DNA of 20,438 bases from a virus, in IMG/VR virus record IMGVR_UViG_3300000930_000252, positions 1-20,438 of that record; one strand, given 5' to 3'. The notes below the pieces were generated by a model. That model worked only from the letters and a program-made list of their open reading frames with translations, did no database searches and was not told the origin of the DNA. How positions within the stretch are numbered: the first letter of the stretch is position 1; the number at the start of each line of letters is the position of its first letter. Shown here piece after piece: positions 32-15,347 of this stretch. Position numbers and translations under genes: made by a program.

Positions 32-541
32 TCAGATCGTGAGCTTCGTAGTTGCCAGCGCGAAAGCGAGAAGTCGTTCGAGCTGTTCTGATTCAGCCTT
101 GATCGCCAGCTTGCCACATGGATCGATGACTTTGAGTTCTATCGTCTTCGAGTTGCGTTCGAAGAATAGAATGATCTCATGCCCTTCGATCACTTTCTGA
201 ACCACTGCGCGATGACTCTTCTGATGAGTGACATCATCGAAGTCTCGCTCGTCGATCAGGTAACTGATCGCGTTCACATCGAATCCGAAACTGCCGAGAT
301 AGTACAAGAACGGTTGGCGATGCCGCTGAATGAAGTCTCGAACATCTCTCGCCTCGACACAATCGAAGCGACCATGCTCGCACAGCGCCACATGCTCGAA
401 CATCTCGCTTGATGCGAAAGTCGCTGCCACCAAGAACTTCGGACCATCCTCATCTTGCGCTGGTCGCACGCTCCAGTAAAAGTTGTTGTCGACCAGCAAC
501 TGCTTAGCTTCTTTCAGCGTCATTCGTTTTTTGGTATTCAT
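32..541 (-). CDS. Hypothetical phage protein, 169 aa
   Basis: I do not recognise this family. The ATG at 541 is preceded by TAGGAGACAAAC, the leader shared by all seven genes of this block, which fixes the start. The product is soluble, of mixed charge, with no signal peptide or membrane segment. The N-terminus is basic (MNTKKRMTLKEAKQLL) and looks like a short helix; the middle (about residues 60-110) is rich in aromatic and acidic residues; the C-terminus is a hydrophobic helix-like stretch (LERLLAFALATTKL). It lies 21 bp after the preceding gene with no ribozyme or hairpin between them, so it is probably translated from the same processed message. It is the last gene seen; what follows is outside the window. 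Confidence 0.72.
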   Translation of the reverse strand: MNTKKRMTLKEAKQLLVDNNFYWSVRPAQDEDGPKFLVAATFASSEMFEHVALCEHGRFDCVEARDVRDFIQRHRQPFLYYLGSFGFDVNAISYLIDERDFDDVTHQKSHRAVVQKVIEGHEIILFFERNSKTIELKVIDPCGKLAIKAESEQLERLLAFALATTKLTI

Positions 542-562
542 GTTTGTCTCCTAGTTCGGGAA

Positions 563-883
563 TTACTTGTTCAGTCGCTTGGCTTGTTCAGGCCACTCGA
601 TGTGATCATCAGGCCACTGCTTGCGATCATCAAGATCAGCGAGTCGCTGAGCTTCTTGCCACTGAGACGTTGTGAGATACTTAGCCTCGCCGCTAACACG
701 AACGAAGCACGATCCGTTGTTGCTAAAAAACAACTGATAGATCCGATGCCATCGACTGCCGAGCTTGATCATCAGATGAGTCGGTGAACCATTCTTCGAA
801 GTGTAGCCATCGATTGTTAGGTTCGGCCTAACGTCTTTCGCCTTCGCCTCAGTGAACTTCGTTTCAAGATATTGAACGCTCAT
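563..883 (-). CDS. Small phage protein, 106 aa, conserved type
   Basis: The ATG at 883 follows TAACTAGGAGACAATC. The centre (residues about 25-65) has the pattern of a small phage protein I have a loose memory of: a G-Y-T-S-x-N-G-S-P-T segment, then LGSRWHRIYQLFFSNNGS and a V-R-V strand. This suggests a compact beta-rich fold with conserved Trp, Arg and aromatic residues, but no function is known to me. The C-terminus is hydrophilic with three Trp residues (SQWQEAQ, KQWPDD, IEWPE). The gene is preceded by an 82 bp gap with strong hairpins and followed closely by the last gene of the block. Function unassigned. Confidence 0.75.
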   Translation of the reverse strand: MSVQYLETKFTEAKAKDVRPNLTIDGYTSKNGSPTHLMIKLGSRWHRIYQLFFSNNGSCFVRVSGEAKYLTTSQWQEAQRLADLDDRKQWPDDHIEWPEQAKRLNK

Positions 884-911
884 GATTGTCTCCTAGTTAG
901 TAACGAGTAAG

Positions 912-962
912 AACGAAGACGAGCAGTCGATGAACTGCTCGCGGTTCGTTGCTACTCAGCAA
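912..962 (-). promoter_or_regulatory. Intergenic double hairpin (no hammerhead core)
   Basis: On the minus strand, right after the DUF932 gene, UUGCU-GAGU-AGCAA (962-949) is followed by a long hairpin. Its inner stem is CGAGCAGU/ACUGCUCG (941-934 with 927-920, loop UCAUCG), and it extends through a small internal loop by AACGAA/UUCGUU (950-945 with 917-912). The two hairpins compete for two bases. The 3' flank has CUUAC and no U-run, so it is a poor intrinsic terminator. It occupies the place where three other gaps of this block carry a ribozyme, and may protect or delimit the message end. No CUGAUGA or GAAA core is present. Confidence 0.6.
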
Positions 963-965
963 GTC

Positions 966-1862
966 TTACGCACTCATGGTGAATGCGAGATCCCATGCCT
1001 TGTCGCATGTCTTATCGTCGAGTGCCAAGAACGCTCGCTCTGCTGCGCTCGGCTTTCCAACTCGCGTCTTGTCATGCTGAATGAATCCAGTGACCATGTT
1101 CGCGAGTTGCCATGGTGTCGCTCGACGAGCGCTGACTTCGACGCCAGTTTTCAACTGCTCACGTTGAAGACGATCGATCATCTGACCAATGTGCTTCTTG
1201 TGACGGCTGATCTTCGACTCAGTCGATGCTTCTGCTGGCGGCGGAAACATCTGAGCGAGGAACTCAGCGGTGTCGACTCGTCGTTCGTTCAGCTTGTTCG
1301 CTGCTTCGACGATGTTATCGTACTTAGCGGCGAGCGTTCTGAACTCATCGACAGTCGAATCGAAGTGATCTCGGAATCCGCCAGTGTGACGAAGCGAGAC
1401 GGTAGTGCCTTGAACCTTGCGCATCATCTGCAAGTTCGAACAAGCATCTCTGAACATGCCAGCAGATGCGATGAACTTGAACCCGAAGTCAGCTCGAAGC
1501 ACGAAGCGCGGCCAGAGCGAGTCGTCGCCGCGAGCGAGCGTTCGTCGATGCTCGTTCGTCGGTGCGATCGAAACACGATGCCCGTTCTTGCCCCAGCAGC
1601 AATCGACTTTGATCTGATCATCTTGCAAGCCGAAACCTTCGGCAGCGATGCGACAGATGTCGACTACATCATCGAGCGTATGCTCTTGGTAGCCTCGCTT
1701 CATCGTTCGAGGAAACCATGCTTCCGGTCCTTCGATGTCAGTGCGACAGATCCCGTAGTGGGGTGTCGGCATGTTATCTGGCCCCATCAGCGGCAGCTTC
1801 ATCGTCTCGCCGAAAGTGCTTCGGATCTTCTCTTCAACATTGTTTGCGAATGCGATACTCAT
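966..1862 (-). CDS. DUF932 family phage/plasmid protein, 298 aa
   Basis: The start is the ATG at 1862 behind TTAGGAGACTAACT; the frame stays open upstream to 2195, but that part crosses a ribozyme and the preceding gene and is not coding. DUF932 features are visible: a central strand-rich part with FVLRADFGFKFIASAGMFRDAC at about residues 131-152 and the R-D-A-C-x-N-L-Q-M-M signature, followed by VSLRHTGGF. The C-terminal helical part has RATPWQLANMVTGFIQHD, matching the family's W-x-x-x-N-x-x-T motif. Family members occur in phages, plasmids and integrative elements; their biochemical role is not settled. The gene follows the first-described ribozyme (1886-1945), whose self-cleavage would give this gene its own 5' end. 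Confidence 0.85.
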   Translation of the reverse strand: MSIAFANNVEEKIRSTFGETMKLPLMGPDNMPTPHYGICRTDIEGPEAWFPRTMKRGYQEHTLDDVVDICRIAAEGFGLQDDQIKVDCCWGKNGHRVSIAPTNEHRRTLARGDDSLWPRFVLRADFGFKFIASAGMFRDACSNLQMMRKVQGTTVSLRHTGGFRDHFDSTVDEFRTLAAKYDNIVEAANKLNERRVDTAEFLAQMFPPPAEASTESKISRHKKHIGQMIDRLQREQLKTGVEVSARRATPWQLANMVTGFIQHDKTRVGKPSAAERAFLALDDKTCDKAWDLAFTMSA

Positions 1863-1885
1863 AGTTAGTCTCCTAAGAATTGAAT

Positions 1886-1945
1886 GCCCGTTCTCATCAG
1901 TGCGGGGATGGGCTTGATCCCGCAGACGCCTTGCGGCGTTTCGAG
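1886..1945 (-). ncRNA. Type II hammerhead ribozyme, copy 1 (weakest stem II)
   Basis: Minus strand, 5' to 3': CUC (stem II 5' side, 1945-1943), GAAA (1942-1939), stem III CGCC-GCAA-GGCG (1938-1927), U-C cleavage site (1926-1925, cut expected between 1925 and 1924), stem I UGCGGG (1924-1919) pairing with CCCGCA (1906-1901), CUGAUGA (1900-1894), GAA (stem II 3' side). The stem I loop has GCCC (1913-1910), complementary to GGGC (1889-1886) just past stem II, giving a 4 bp pseudoknot. Stem II has only C-G and U-A; the third pair seen in the other copies is a C/A mismatch here. It lies 8 nt after the stop of the upstream gene and 24 nt before the DUF932 start. Confidence 0.87.
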
Positions 1946-1953
1946 TTTGGCGA

Positions 1954-2550
1954 TCACTCGCTGTCTTCGAAAGCGATGACAGCATCGATCGCAGGATCGA
2001 CGAACGGATGAACAGCGACCTCATCGAGAAGCGCTTCTGTCTGCTTCGGTTCTTCGACATCGCCGAAGACGATGCGAGCAGTGCTGAACTTCGCAGCGAT
2101 CTTTCGATCGATCTGCGATTCGAACTCTTCGAGCGCCTCGCCGATCTTGTCATCAAAGTCGAACGATTCAAGCGCCTCGCCGATCTTCTCATCAAAGTCG
2201 ATGTAGCTGAGCTGCTCTTCGATCGCAGTGTCGAAGTCGTACTCGTTCACTGCTTCCCCGATCTCATAGCTGAAGTCATGTTCGCTGATCGCTTCAGTCA
2301 TCAAGTGATCGAAGTCATAGTCGTTCAGCTTCTCATCGACGAGTTCATCAACCGCTTCGAGTTGCTGCGTCAGTTCTTCGATCTTCATCTTCAAGTCGCC
2401 GATCTCGTCTTCGTGAGTCAGAACGAGATGATCGATGCGGTCGAGCATCTGCCCCATCGTCTCGACTGACGCACCATGATCGACGAGCATGAACCAGCGA
2501 AGGTTCTTAAAGATTCGAGCAATAGCTTTCTTGATGTTTAGAACTTTCAT
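1954..2550 (-). CDS. Acidic repeat protein, 198 aa, with five 13-residue repeats
   Basis: Not a family I recognise. The ATG at 2550 follows AATAGGAGACAACT. Residues 1-25 are basic and partly hydrophobic (KKAIARIFKNLRWFML). Residues 35-75 are a heptad-like helix and probable coiled coil. Residues 79-143 are five tandem 13-residue units, each beginning D-F (DFDHLMTEAISEH, DFSYEIGEAVNEY, DFDTAIEEQLSYI, DFDEKIGEALESF, DFDDKIGEALEEF). The tail is acidic (EALLDEVAV, AFEDSE). Strong negative charge and amphipathic repeats suggest a rod or an interaction surface, possibly a mimic or inhibitor of a basic or nucleic acid-binding host factor; that is guesswork. It is flanked by ribozymes on both sides, so its message should be released as a single-gene unit. 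Confidence 0.8.
   Translation of the reverse strand: MKVLNIKKAIARIFKNLRWFMLVDHGASVETMGQMLDRIDHLVLTHEDEIGDLKMKIEELTQQLEAVDELVDEKLNDYDFDHLMTEAISEHDFSYEIGEAVNEYDFDTAIEEQLSYIDFDEKIGEALESFDFDDKIGEALEEFESQIDRKIAAKFSTARIVFGDVEEPKQTEALLDEVAVHPFVDPAIDAVIAFEDSE
2122..2316 (-). repeat. Five in-frame 39 bp tandem repeats
   Basis: This stretch encodes the five 13-residue D-F-x-x-x-I-x-E-A-x units of the 198 aa protein. The units at the low-coordinate end are nearly identical in DNA (both encode KIGEALE), while the earlier ones have diverged. That gradient fits repeat expansion by slippage or unequal recombination at the 3' end of the array. Confidence 0.8.
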
Positions 2551-2571
2551 AGTTGTCTCCTATTGAATGTT

Positions 2572-2631
2572 TGCGCTGTCTCATCAGTGCGGGAAGCGCA
2601 GAACCCCGCAGACGCCTTTCGGCGTTTCGAC
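2572..2631 (-). ncRNA. Type II hammerhead ribozyme, copy 2
   Basis: Minus strand: stem II 5' side GUC (2631-2629), GAAA (2628-2625), stem III CGCC-GAAA-GGCG (2624-2613), U-C (2612-2611, cleavage expected between 2611 and 2610), stem I UGCGGG (2610-2605) with CCCGCA (2593-2588), CUGAUGA (2587-2581), stem II 3' side GAC (2580-2578). The stem I loop contains UGCGCU (2600-2595), the exact complement of AGCGCA (2577-2572) immediately after stem II: a 6 bp pseudoknot. All conserved hammerhead core bases are present. Stem II starts on the base after the UAA stop codon of the preceding gene; the next start codon is 22 nt beyond the pseudoknot. Confidence 0.94.
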
Positions 2632-2889
2632 TTAGAAGCGATAGAACCTCTCTGGACCGTTCGTGTAACCTTCAAGAACAAACTCAGTCACCATCTCATC
2701 AAGCAGCGACATGAGTACCGGGTAGGTGTTGAAGTTCGCAGCGAAGTGAGGCATCGCGTTCCATGCTTCTTCGAGCGTGAACTTCTTCGATGTCAGAAAG
2801 TTATTACGAAGGGCATTAAAGTATGTTTTCTTGCATTCAAGCCGCTGCTCGTACTCGCTGAGTCTTGTTCGCGTTATGGCACTACTCAT
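2632..2889 (-). CDS. Hypothetical small phage protein, 85 aa
   Basis: The start is the ATG at 2889 behind CTAAGGAGACAACT; an open extension to 2988 overlaps the preceding gene and lacks a binding site. The product is small, helical and mildly basic at the N-terminus (RTRLSEYEQRLECKKTYFNAL), with an aromatic C-terminus (GPERFYRF). I do not recognise the family. Its UAA stop abuts copy 2 of the hammerhead ribozyme, so after cleavage its message would end in the short ribozyme stem III hairpin, which could stabilise the 3' end. It lies only 26 bp after the preceding gene and is probably translated with it. Confidence 0.72.
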   Translation of the reverse strand: MSSAITRTRLSEYEQRLECKKTYFNALRNNFLTSKKFTLEEAWNAMPHFAANFNTYPVLMSLLDEMVTEFVLEGYTNGPERFYRF

Positions 2890-2915
2890 AGTTGTCTCCT
2901 TAGTTGAAGTTCTAA

Positions 2916-3275
2916 TCAGTGAGATCGGACGATAGCGTGAGTCTCGAACGCTGCGATCTCTCGGATGCCAGCGTGACTGGCGAAGCATGTGAGATCCTTG
3001 CTGATCTGAGTGAACAGATAGCAGTTCGGATTGTGAACGCTTTCAGGGATCTCAGCAGCGATGAAGAATCGATACTCCCAGTTCATCGACTCAGCGAATT
3101 GCTTCGCCGCTTCGACGATGTTCTCATGATCGTTCATCTCCCAGTCCCATCCGTAGCGCTTGCGGTTGCCAGCGCTTGTCGGTCCAGACATGACGAGCAT
3201 TCGCTTGCTTCGATGACTCGTCGCAGGAAGAACTCGAACTCGAATCGCTTGCAGTGTTTGAATGTTAGCACTCAT
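2916..3275 (-). CDS. Hypothetical phage protein, 119 aa
   Basis: The ATG at 3275 follows AACTAGGAGACAACT. The N-terminus (IRVRVLPATSHRSKRMLVMSG) has the shape of small phage proteins that begin with a V-x-x-L-P-A-T strand followed by a basic R-x-x-R turn and a second strand. A helix (ENIVEAAKQFAESMNWEYRF) and a strand region follow. The pattern is familiar from phage accessory regions but has no function I can name. The gene follows ribozyme copy 3, so it should head the message fragment released by that ribozyme, together with the 85 aa gene downstream. No signal peptide or membrane segment. Confidence 0.75.
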   Translation of the reverse strand: MSANIQTLQAIRVRVLPATSHRSKRMLVMSGPTSAGNRKRYGWDWEMNDHENIVEAAKQFAESMNWEYRFFIAAEIPESVHNPNCYLFTQISKDLTCFASHAGIREIAAFETHAIVRSH

Positions 3276-3293
3276 AGTTGTCTCCTAGTTGTG

Positions 3294-3353
3294 TGGCTTG
3301 TCTCATCAGTGATCGAGTAGCCAACTCGATCAGACGCCTTGCGGCGTTTCGAC
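3294..3353 (-). ncRNA. Type II hammerhead ribozyme, copy 3 (best formed)
   Basis: Minus strand: stem II 5' side GUC (3353-3351), GAAA (3350-3347), stem III CGCC-GCAA-GGCG (3346-3335), U-C (3334-3333, cleavage expected between 3333 and 3332), stem I UGAUCGAGU (3332-3324) pairing perfectly over 9 bp with ACUCGAUCA (3318-3310), CUGAUGA (3309-3303), stem II 3' side GAC (3302-3300). The 5 nt stem I loop UGGCU (3323-3319) is the exact complement of AGCCA (3298-3294). The G of the UAG stop codon of the preceding gene is the first base of stem II. Stem I and the pseudoknot differ completely from copies 1 and 2 yet pair, so they covary. The ribosome binding site of the next gene follows about 8 nt beyond the pseudoknot. 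Confidence 0.95.
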
Positions 3354-3655
3354 TAATAGCTTTCGTATCGAACAGCATTAAGCATCTGAGCGACAGCAGG
3401 ACTAACAGTCTTCGTATTGTTCGCCATCAAAACCGTGTTGATCATTCGAGCGATCGTCAAACCACTGACATCGCCAGCGGGCAAGTTGATGCTCAGCGGC
3501 TGAATGCCGCCGATGTCCACGTTAGTGAAGATCTTGAAAGATCGATTGTCGTAGCTGCCCGTTAGCGAGCAGTTGCCGATGTAACCGGATCGAGCTTCGA
3601 TGTTCGGGAAGATCTTGTTCAAGATGTTCGCAGCTTGTTCATGTGAAGTCTTCAT
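3353..3655 (-). CDS. Hypothetical small phage protein, 100 aa
   Basis: The ATG at 3655 follows AACTAGGAGACAACC. The product is neutral and soluble: an N-terminal helix (EQAANILNKIFPNIEA), a central Gly/Ser-rich beta region (GYIGNCSLTGSYDNRSFKIF), and a C-terminal helix pair (TIARMINTVLMANN, VAQMLNAVRYES). I do not recognise the family. It is the first gene after the 600 nt structured region and a hairpin at 3692-3719. Its UAG stop overlaps the first base of ribozyme copy 3, so coding sequence and ribozyme are fused without a spacer. Confidence 0.72.
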   Translation of the reverse strand: MKTSHEQAANILNKIFPNIEARSGYIGNCSLTGSYDNRSFKIFTNVDIGGIQPLSINLPAGDVSGLTIARMINTVLMANNTKTVSPAVAQMLNAVRYESY

Positions 3656-3691
3656 GGTTGTCTCCTAGTTTTAGAAAGTAAGAACGAGAAA

Positions 3692-3719
3692 GAGCATCGC
3701 GTTCATGACAGCGATGCTC
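3692..3719 (-). terminator. Hairpin with U-rich tail, possible terminator
   Basis: Minus strand GAGCAUCGC (3719-3711), 10 nt loop, GCGAUGCUC (3700-3692): 9 perfect base pairs, followed by UUUCUCGUUCUU. The tail is U-rich but interrupted, so termination may be partial. It would mark the 3' end of the structured RNA or act as the 5' hairpin of the following message. ACGA before and UCGU after can extend the stem, an arrangement similar to the hairpin at 912-950. Confidence 0.55.
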
Positions 3720-4246
3720 AGATTCGTACCGACTTTGCATTCGGTGAATCGCGTCTATCGTTCGATGTGTTCTGAGTGACCAGCTGGTTTCAGATCGCAT
3801 CGTTCTAATGAGCGGCGATTCTCTTTCGACCGTAACCGGTCACCGCTGTGCCCGCGCCGCTTCGCAGCGGTGCGTATCAGCGGGGCAGAGGACTTTCTCA
3901 CCTTGCGGTTCGAGATGGGATCTTCATGATCCGCCCTTGATCTGCGGTCGTTCGTTTGCCGGATCTTTCGATCGTTCGGCGACCGCGAGACTTCTGCTCG
4001 CTTCAGGATTCCATTCCCGATGTCTATACATTAGAACAGAAAGGGTAGAACTACGCAAGGCCCCTAGTTCCTCGCCCACAGCGATAGACCCGGCGTTTCA
4101 CGGCATTTAAGCGATTCTCTTCTGAGGATTCCCATCACATCGCCACACTCATCAGGATCGAGCAGGACGAGCGCAGATGATCGCATAGCAGGTTATGCGA
4201 ATAAGGAATCGAGCGAGCGTAGGCGATGCGCTGCTGACATGAGAAC

Positions 4247-4289
4247 GAACTCTCGCCACTCAGCGGGATAGGATGAGCGACGAGAGTTC
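4247..4289 (-). terminator. 16 bp hairpin after the methyltransferase gene
   Basis: The arms 4289-4274 and 4262-4247 pair over 16 consecutive positions on the minus strand (14 Watson-Crick, 2 G-U), with an 11 nt loop. It begins 17 nt after the methyltransferase stop and is followed by GUUCUCAUGUC, a weak U tail. It is either a leaky terminator, a 3' stabiliser, or the first domain of the structured RNA that follows. Confidence 0.55.
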
Positions 4290-4305
4290 CTAGCGCGACA
4301 AGCGC

Positions 4306-12381: not shown

Positions 12382-12947
12382 AGTTTCTTCCATCGTTTTT
12401 TGACTGCGAGAATGAACGCTGTCTTCTGATTGTGTCTTGTCATGTCGACCGCTGCTCGCATAAACGGTCGTGGACGCTGCCTCGTTCTGTCAGTTCTGCC
12501 TCCCTCTTTATTCCATCGCGGAATCATGCCACCATACTCGAACACGTTGCCGATGTTGCCCCACGGTCTTTCCGGTCCGATCATGCAGAGAACAGCGTTT
12601 CTATAAACTACGATCTTGGTTCGAAGCGACTGCGATAGATTCTTCGGGTTGTTCGCTCGTTGTTGGCGAGTCGCTTTCGCTTGAAGTTTCGCCGTTCCGG
12701 TTCTGCGTGATTGATGCGGTCTCGCAAGTGCTGCGGCTTTCCTTGCCACTACTGTTCCGCCTGCTCGCGTTGCTTGCGTCATGACCTTGAGCCTAAGTTC
12801 CTCTGGTAGCTTGCGGAACATCTTCTCAGTCGCGGGAGTGATTCTGAACGAGACACCCTTGCGGCTGTTCTTCGCAGACATGCGGCGCTTGTATCTTAGC
12901 GCCTTGCCTTGCATCTCGATCTTCTGAAACATACCCGACGAACTCAT
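12378..12947 (-). CDS. HK97 gp10-like tail completion protein, 189 aa
   Basis: Connects head to tail during completion. The ATG overlaps the previous stop as ATGA. Residues 30-90 carry the gp10 pattern: a helix FRKLPEELRLKVMTQATR followed by A-G-G-T-V-V-A-R-K-A-A-A-L-A-R-P-H and an R-R-T-G segment. Unusually basic overall (many Arg/Lys, especially residues 15-30, 65-100 and the C-terminus KKRWKKL), and somewhat longer than many family members. A central strand region (KIVVYRNAVLCMIGP) and a Trp-Gly-Asn turn precede the final helix FMRAAVDMTRHNQKTAF. No catalytic function is expected. Confidence 0.86.
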   Translation of the reverse strand: MSSSGMFQKIEMQGKALRYKRRMSAKNSRKGVSFRITPATEKMFRKLPEELRLKVMTQATRAGGTVVARKAAALARPHQSRRTGTAKLQAKATRQQRANNPKNLSQSLRTKIVVYRNAVLCMIGPERPWGNIGNVFEYGGMIPRWNKEGGRTDRTRQRPRPFMRAAVDMTRHNQKTAFILAVKKRWKKL

Positions 12948-13955: not shown

Positions 13956-13991
13956 GCTGAGAACGAGTGACGCTGTGAACATCAAACTAGA

Positions 13992-15347
13992 TCAAGTAGC
14001 AAACAAGCCGACGATGCTGCCAGCAGTGGTCGCAGTTCCGACATCGAAGATCTGGGTATCAGATCGACTTGTAGCGACGAGACCGACTTGATCGCTCGCG
14101 GCATACAACTCGTTCAGCACCTTGATCGTGAGACTTCGGCGAATGCCCATGATTGAACCCATCCGAAGATCACCGAAGACAGCAGTCAGATCGCCAGCGA
14201 CAGCACCCAATCCAGAGAGAACTTGCGTGAAGTAAACCGGATACCCGAGAAACTGAGCTGGCATTCCGCCCGCAACATTGTCGCCAGTGTTTCCGCCAGC
14301 GGCATAGAGCAATCGCTGCATCGAAGCAGCGTAACCAGAGTGATTGATATACCACGCTGGCTGGATGCCTGCGTACAACGGCAGAGCAGCGACAGCATCG
14401 GTGAACTCGTCGAGCGTCTGCGCTCCCCAGTTCACATTGAGTGCCAACTGAGAACCCGCAGCAAGCGCGTTCGCGATGCCAGTGATGCCACCGAACGCCG
14501 CTGTGCCGTCACCGAGGAAGCTATTCGTATCCTCTGCCACAGCGATCGCATAAGCGATCTCCTCAGTAACAAGATCGACCATCGAGATGATCGAGTCTTC
14601 TTCGAGTTCGGTACTCATCAGTGCCAGCACTGCGTACTTCTTAGCTACGAGATTGATCTGTCCGAAAGTGAGATCTGAGTTTCCGATATTTCCACCCTCG
14701 CCCGGGTACTCGACGGTCAATCCGCCAACCCGCTGCGGCACATCGAGAGTGTTCGAAGTCATCGGCATCGTTCGAGCGCTTCGACGAAAGACGCCAGCTT
14801 CCTCGACGAGTCGAATGATCGTCGCTTCCAGCGGTTCAGGAACAGTGAATCCACCGGCAGTATTCGGTGTGATGCTCATGTCGCCGCGAGCAGGACTCAT
14901 CTGATAGCCTGACTCGATCAGCTTGTTCTTCGCCGAGTGATTGCCAGCAGCAGCAGCGTAGAACAATCCAGCGAAGTACGCTTCCTTGTTGCTGTTAAAG
15001 TGCTTCGACTTCTGATAAGCAACCCGAGCAGAGATCTTCTGATTCTCCCACGGATAATCAGCGCTTGCGTTAGCGGTGCCGTCTGGCTGAGACGAGTCGC
15101 CACCAGTAGCGATCTGCCGATTAACCTTTCGTGCTTCGCTCTGCTTCGTCTTCTCGAATGCAGCAGCGTAGACTTTCAGCTCATTCTCGTTCTTGTCGAA
15201 CTCAGCACTGAGTTCGCTGATTGAGTTGAGTGCAGACGACTGAGCATCTGCGTCAGCGGTTTCAACTGATCCGATTGCTTCGATCTCGCTTGCGATCTCA
15301 GCGTTCCGAGCGTCGAGCTTCTCGATCTTGTTCTTGATTGTACTCAT
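13992..15347 (-). CDS. Major capsid protein, HK97 family, 451 aa
   Basis: Main head shell protein. Residues 1-75 are a helical scaffold-like delta domain, with IKNKIEKLDARNAEIASEIE and a second heptad-like helix (SISELSAEFDKNENELKVY). The mature domain begins near 150: MSITPNTAGGFTVPEPL, then E-E-A-G-V-F-R-R-S-A-R, LVAKKYAVLALMSTELEED (residues about 230-250) and the later AFGGITGIANAL region, all typical of HK97-fold capsids. The delta domain is likely removed by the adjacent ClpP-like protease. The start ATG at 15347 has only a distant AAGG, unusual for so highly made a protein; a 109 bp leader precedes it. Confidence 0.94.
   Translation of the reverse strand: MSTIKNKIEKLDARNAEIASEIEAIGSVETADADAQSSALNSISELSAEFDKNENELKVYAAAFEKTKQSEARKVNRQIATGGDSSQPDGTANASADYPWENQKISARVAYQKSKHFNSNKEAYFAGLFYAAAAGNHSAKNKLIESGYQMSPARGDMSITPNTAGGFTVPEPLEATIIRLVEEAGVFRRSARTMPMTSNTLDVPQRVGGLTVEYPGEGGNIGNSDLTFGQINLVAKKYAVLALMSTELEEDSIISMVDLVTEEIAYAIAVAEDTNSFLGDGTAAFGGITGIANALAAGSQLALNVNWGAQTLDEFTDAVAALPLYAGIQPAWYINHSGYAASMQRLLYAAGGNTGDNVAGGMPAQFLGYPVYFTQVLSGLGAVAGDLTAVFGDLRMGSIMGIRRSLTIKVLNELYAASDQVGLVATSRSDTQIFDVGTATTAGSIVGLFAT

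Follow-up and report, generated by a model that had tools for sequence, protein, structure and literature searches.

What are three predicted self-cleaving RNAs doing between the small genes of a phage operon? The question is raised by a 20,438-base virus record, which we will call the window. On its minus strand, the main genes run from the terminase and portal through the structural genes to a ParB-methyltransferase fusion; after a non-coding stretch of 650 nt come seven small genes, from position 3655 down to position 32:

3353 to 3655, minus strand: gene for a 100-amino-acid (aa) protein; no family found
2916 to 3275, minus strand: gene for a 119-aa protein; weak match to phrog_3199 (unknown function)
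2632 to 2889, minus strand: gene for an 85-aa protein; no family found
1954 to 2550, minus strand: gene for a 198-aa acidic repeat protein
966 to 1862, minus strand: DUF932 gene (Pfam PF06067, 7.6e-13)
563 to 883, minus strand: gene for a 106-aa protein
32 to 541, minus strand: gene for a 169-aa protein; no family found

The six gaps inside this cluster are 77, 26, 81, 91, 82, and 21 nt long. The initial annotation proposed that three of the four long gaps carry a hammerhead ribozyme (HHR), directly after a stop codon and 20 to 30 nt before the next start, and that the fourth carries a different hairpin. The coordinates of the gaps, and the scores from a covariance model that was built without the window's own copies, bear this out:

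3289 to 3356, minus strand: HHR A, in the gap between the 100-aa and 119-aa genes; predicted cut between 3333 and 3332; 64.4 bits
2567 to 2634, minus strand: HHR C, in the gap between the 85-aa and 198-aa genes; predicted cut between 2611 and 2610; 58.2 bits
1880 to 1948, minus strand: HHR D, in the gap between the 198-aa and DUF932 genes; predicted cut between 1925 and 1924; 44.8 bits
884 to 965, minus strand: hairpin in the fourth long gap, rejected as an HHR; folds strongly (z = -3.6) and is terminator-like in a simple scan

The stop codon is 2, 3, or 11 nt from the GAAAC of the ribozyme, and the CUGAUGA is 27, 30, or 31 nt from the next start codon. The first bases after the predicted cuts (3332, 2610, and 1924) are also the ones that the initial annotation gave. 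In the gaps of 26 and 21 nt there is a leader only, so a gap with an HHR resembles a ribozyme wedged between a stop codon and the standard leader. This leader is a near-identical ribosome binding site region, with AGGAGACAA shortly 5' of the ATG (minus strand), and it precedes six of the seven small genes (window positions 536-552, 878-894, 2545-2561, 2884-2900, 3270-3286, and 3650-3666).

The core of the ribozyme is intact in all three HHRs: C-GAAAC, a short stem III that ends in GUC, a closed stem I, and CUGAUGA. In each of them, stems I and III are closed by loops and stem II is open, which is the type II order. Loop I forms a pseudoknot of 4 to 6 bp with the 3' tail in every copy, with differing sequences (UGGCU/AGCCA, UGCGCU/AGCGCA, and GCCC/GGGC). 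Stem II has 3, 3, and 2 bp in HHRs A, C, and D, and in HHR A, the UAG stop codon at 3353-3355 lends its G to stem II. The three HHRs lie on one strand within 1.5 kb and flank the 119-aa plus 85-aa, 198-aa, and DUF932 blocks.

Just one of the window's copies scores above the cut-off of Rfam's type II model (RF02276, 37 bits): HHR C, with 39.9 bits, exceeds the gathering score; HHR D reaches 21.4 bits, which is below the cut-off; and HHR A is absent from the list of matches in the Rfam search of the window. Two of the three fall under or outside the cut-off because stem I and the loops vary. A covariance model of 60 HHRs (57 from IMG/VR and the three from the window) scores copies A, C, and D at 67.9, 65.0, and 54.2 bits. 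The second model, which gave the scores listed above, has 50 HHRs and leaves out the window copies; the next match in the window scores 11 bits. In the 60-sequence alignment, pairing reaches 93-100% in stem II, stem III, and the lower part of stem I, compared with 72% in the upper part of stem I and 78% in the pseudoknot. Both sides of a pair have changed in 266 cells, versus 72 in shuffles, and the pairing is lost when the partners are slid by 1-3 columns. By sequence and structure, A, C, and D are type II hammerhead ribozymes, and cleavage is predicted. They match RF02276 in strand order, invariant core, GUC cut site, stems, and pseudoknot, and the 2-bp stem II of copy D is not an essential difference.

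We also considered two other places in the window. A pairing of CUGAUGAG with GAAAC in the 650-nt non-coding stretch was rejected as a further HHR, as it had no Rfam match with E ≤ 1 and no match to the models. In the gap between the 119-aa and 85-aa genes (2889-2940, minus strand), CACTGATTAGA is one base off the ribozyme's CACTGATGAGA and sits where the 3' half of an HHR would; it could be a decayed copy, and the models do not support it.

Are the ribozymes kept at these sites? Relatives of the DUF932 protein at 42-44% identity are found in three records: L170 (which is the record of L009/G007), L171, and L172. Each of these records also has relatives of the 198-aa repeat protein and of the 106-aa protein (34-38%). 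In all three, there is an HHR before the repeat-protein gene, another before DUF932, and another after DUF932, and the last of these is weak in L172. At the first two sites, the downstream gene is constant across the window and the three records, and the upstream gene varies. At the repeat-protein site, the gene upstream of the HHR encodes 85 aa in the window, 78 aa in L170 and L172, and 152 aa in L171. At the DUF932 site, the window has the repeat gene in this place; L170 and L171 have a relative of the 106-aa gene there, and L172 has a gene for 66 aa. The DUF932 site shows compensatory changes between the window and its relatives, both in stem I (UGCGGG/CCCGCA to CACAAG/CUUGUG) and in the pseudoknot (GCCC/GGGC to GUCC/GGAC). 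HHRs seem to have been kept at both sites despite the differing upstream neighbors, which is apparently a new point. The gene that comes after the relatives' third HHR is not the one that comes after DUF932 in the window, and the window lacks this HHR.

The 198-aa protein of the window contains in-frame repeats of 39 nt (FDxxIGEALE-like; 2120-2275, minus strand), and its relatives in L170-L172 look acidic and repetitive too. A comparison gave no support for homology between the 119-aa protein and the 78-aa gene of L172.

The expectation that related phages would have ribozymes in the same gaps thus holds for close relatives, before the repeat-protein gene and before DUF932, and does not extend to distant ones: in records with DUF932 at 30-35% identity, there was no HHR anywhere in the records searched. 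The ribozyme is therefore not required for the DUF932 gene. Locus L168 has a weak partial match (11 bits) with GATGAGAC at 12774-12843 (minus strand), between relatives of the repeat-protein and 106-aa genes, which is perhaps another decayed HHR. As for how the relatives were found, single-sequence searches with the DUF932 and 119-aa proteins gave no relatives among viral contigs or phages; with an alignment of two DUF932 sequences, 12 loci were found in IMG/VR, and GTDB genomes yielded none. Judged by terminase or methyltransferase, the closest relatives are L123 (94%), L124 (83%), and L164 (93%); these short contigs end before the operon and had no HHR.

The HHRs might be inherited relics, neutral or decaying, that have no present role. 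Their absence from the distant relatives fits, as does the possible decayed copy between the 119-aa and 85-aa genes. Relics would not be expected to have intact cores in three of three copies or compensatory changes in stem and pseudoknot at matching sites, and we consider this explanation very improbable. Because the HHRs are real, intergenic, on the same strand as the genes, and matched site by site in relatives with compensatory changes, a role in RNA processing would be the natural reading.

What would the processing be for? We think it probable (roughly 60%) that the HHRs cut themselves during transcription and thereby provide each following gene with a standard leader, with a 5'-hydroxyl (5'-OH) on a hairpin, like a natural RiboJ. 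This proposal builds on what is observed, namely, the identity of the motif, the conservation of its structure at matching sites, and a statistical tie to the downstream gene (see below). As the minus-strand message is synthesized, each HHR would fold and cut itself. Four pieces would result from the polycistronic RNA: one with the 100-aa gene, one with the 119-aa and 85-aa genes, one with the 198-aa gene, and one with DUF932 and the two genes after it. The stem III hairpin, just past the stop codon, would form the end of each upstream piece and carry a 2',3'-cyclic phosphate. The downstream pieces would start at the stem I hairpin with a 5'-OH, and the standard leader and ribosome binding site would come next. 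The main beneficiary would be the downstream gene, which would acquire a fixed leader that is independent of what lies upstream. Such a leader may also resist decay that depends on the 5' end, as the engineered insulator RiboJ does. In this reading, cleavage would take place in cells, stabilize the RNA, and affect expression.

RiboJ combines an engineered sTRSV hammerhead with a hairpin and, as predicted for the window, leaves a 5' hairpin leader before the ribosome binding site; it raises transcript levels about 2-fold and protein levels 2- to 10-fold (PMC6206723). RiboJ is engineered, belongs to another type of hammerhead, is promoter-proximal, and is not serial, so its likeness to the window's HHRs is functional only. 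RNases E, J, and Y generally favor 5'-monophosphate ends (PMC7509114). On cutting, the ribosome binding site is predicted to become slightly more exposed (0.60, from 0.56), and part of this rise is expected from the shortening of the RNA. With so little change in exposure, insulation by unmasking is weakly supported. Also, as distant DUF932 phages lack the HHR in the records searched, the effect would be dispensable over longer times.

The initial annotation described a serial array of intergenic HHRs as unusual. This is not supported: the arrangement is common in the data that we searched and was known before. As described by Perreault et al. 2011 (PMC3088659), prophages contain clustered type II hammerheads that flank single genes; tandem arrays cleave in vitro, and one cleaves in E. 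coli; and processing to operon- or gene-length mRNAs was proposed. The prophage arrays in that paper (from Agrobacterium, Azorhizobium, and Clostridium scindens) likewise have several HHRs on a strand, around single genes or short blocks of varied content. Cleavage was assayed there, whereas the array in the window is in a metagenomic virus record and is known from its sequence.

Our census of HHRs combined three pattern scans of IMG/VR with related loci, and some of the records are separate stretches of one contig. It includes at least 316 distinct HHRs in at least 191 records that carry one or more; at least 65 of these records have two or more HHRs and at least 34 have three or more, and as the records were picked for having an HHR, these counts are not informative on phages in general. 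When 45 records were searched over their full length, the highest numbers of HHRs per record were 13, 10, and 7. Among the matches listed, all 125 pairs of neighboring HHRs are on the same strand, with a median spacing of 632 nt, and exactly one gene lies between the HHRs in 61 of the 125 pairs.

There is also an array in a cultured phage, Streptomyces phage Thestral, which has ten HHRs at 42516-51065 of its genome, all unannotated. In our locus L282, the features are:

12517 to 21066, minus strand: ten HHRs, unannotated
13961 to 14338: gene whose annotated start runs into an HHR
20041 to 20472: gene whose annotated start runs into an HHR

The annotated starts of both genes are probably wrong. 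Automated annotation misses HHRs and may place start codons within them, as for these two genes. For three other loci (L043, L235, and L271), no cultured relatives were found.

In L103, L112, and L025, HHR copies within one genome have a common stem I and differing stem III; in L103 and L112, the copies share the 3' flank as well. This suggests that the copies may have arisen by duplication, after which stem III drifted freely. Shared stem I and flanks with differing stem III, as in L103 and L112, might also be expected if neighboring ribozymes release and ligate a unit, as a stage of RNA circularization or of a mobile element. We give this idea hardly any credence: neighboring ribozymes enclose ordinary genes that have leaders of their own, and about half of the neighboring pairs counted above enclose a single gene. 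Also, Perreault et al. sought circular or spliced products and found none (PMC3088659).

With which neighboring gene does the HHR go? Across different records, among the matches listed, 48 pairs of HHRs share only the downstream gene, 26 share only the upstream gene, and 16 share both. Families that have unrelated partners on the other side show the same bias (26 downstream versus 11 upstream, p = 0.02, among the matches listed). The pairs and families in these counts are not fully independent, so we take the downstream bias as moderate support. The HHR seems to be kept mainly with the downstream gene, by about 2:1 and not exclusively, which is apparently a new point. In this respect the ribozymes resemble RiboJ: they lie in the leader of the gene that they are kept with.

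The position of the stop codon is also regular. Among the matches listed, GAAAC begins 2-4 nt after the upstream stop in 172 of 301 cases, and just four of the 301 stops are inside the ribozyme. Where the two are 2 nt apart, 62 of 77 stops are UAG, and in 60 of the 77 the last base of the stop is paired in stem II (again among the matches listed). UAG accounts for 38% of the stops adjacent to HHRs, versus 22% for the remaining long ORFs of these loci (p = 3e-8, among the matches listed). The distance from CUGAUGA to the start codon has a median of about 30 nt. That the ribozyme abuts or overlaps the upstream stop, with UAG enriched, is apparently a new point. The searched passages of PMC3088659 do not mention stop codons or discuss a tie to the downstream gene; our coverage of the literature was of open-license papers, and within it both regularities appear to be new.

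The tight spacing, the excess of UAG with its last base often paired in stem II, and the 26 pairs that share only the upstream gene would all fit a different purpose. The HHRs might mainly form the 3' end of the upstream gene's message, where the hairpin and cyclic phosphate would resist 3' exonucleases, much like a terminator that does not depend on transcription. We consider this unlikely, as the HHR stays with the downstream gene in related phages while the upstream neighbors change, and as shared downstream genes are about twice as frequent. Compact genomes alone could account for the spacing. A test of long gaps for whether HHRs are anchored to the stop or to the start gave no separation, and unlisted small genes probably split those gaps.

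Compactness can explain the spacing; the same spacing would also put the 5' part of the ribozyme under the terminating ribosome. Perhaps stem II, along with the 5' strand of stem III, is masked by this ribosome, and the ribozyme folds only if the upstream gene is not being translated or after its translation. If the overlap with the stop is functional in this way, which seems a long shot, then each cut, and the release and stability of the next message, would report on translation of the preceding gene. This would be a protein-free, translation-gated ordering of gene expression along phage operons. The overlapping or abutting 5' end and the scarcity of stops within the ribozyme are as expected from such gating. 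They are also purely geometric: gaps in phages are short in general, and the limits on the sequences of the stems forbid most internal stops. We therefore judge gating to be quite improbable, and continue to favor the standard leader for the downstream gene.

RNase III sites between the early genes of phage T7 let a polycistronic message be cut into stable, gene-sized pieces. Processing in T7 needs a host protein and leaves 5'-phosphate ends, unlike the HHRs of the window. Theta (HDV-like) ribozymes from gut phages are also self-cleaving RNAs in phage genomes; unlike the window's HHRs, they belong to another class of ribozyme and are tied to tRNA-based recoding (PMC10879173). The purpose of hammerhead arrays in phages was left open by the 2011 paper (PMC3088659). 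With the conservation of the HHR with the downstream gene, the overlap with the stop codon, and an array in the cultured phage Thestral, the purpose becomes a question that experiments can answer.

Finally, the hairpin of the fourth long gap has a counterpart just upstream of the first small gene:

3656 to 3720, minus strand: hairpin in the leader of the first gene; its sequence is related to that of the hairpin at 884-965

The gap at 884-965 and the gap before the 100-aa gene have TCGTTCTTACT and the leader in common. The two hairpins are alike (GAGCA...UGCUC) and are followed by a common YTCGTTCTTACT and the same leader; one of the two is terminator-like. More broadly, the region from the methyltransferase to the small-gene operon (3656-4305) is about 650 nt without a convincing gene. 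Its minus strand folds far better than shuffled sequences do (z = -5.5), and it is possibly a long structured leader.
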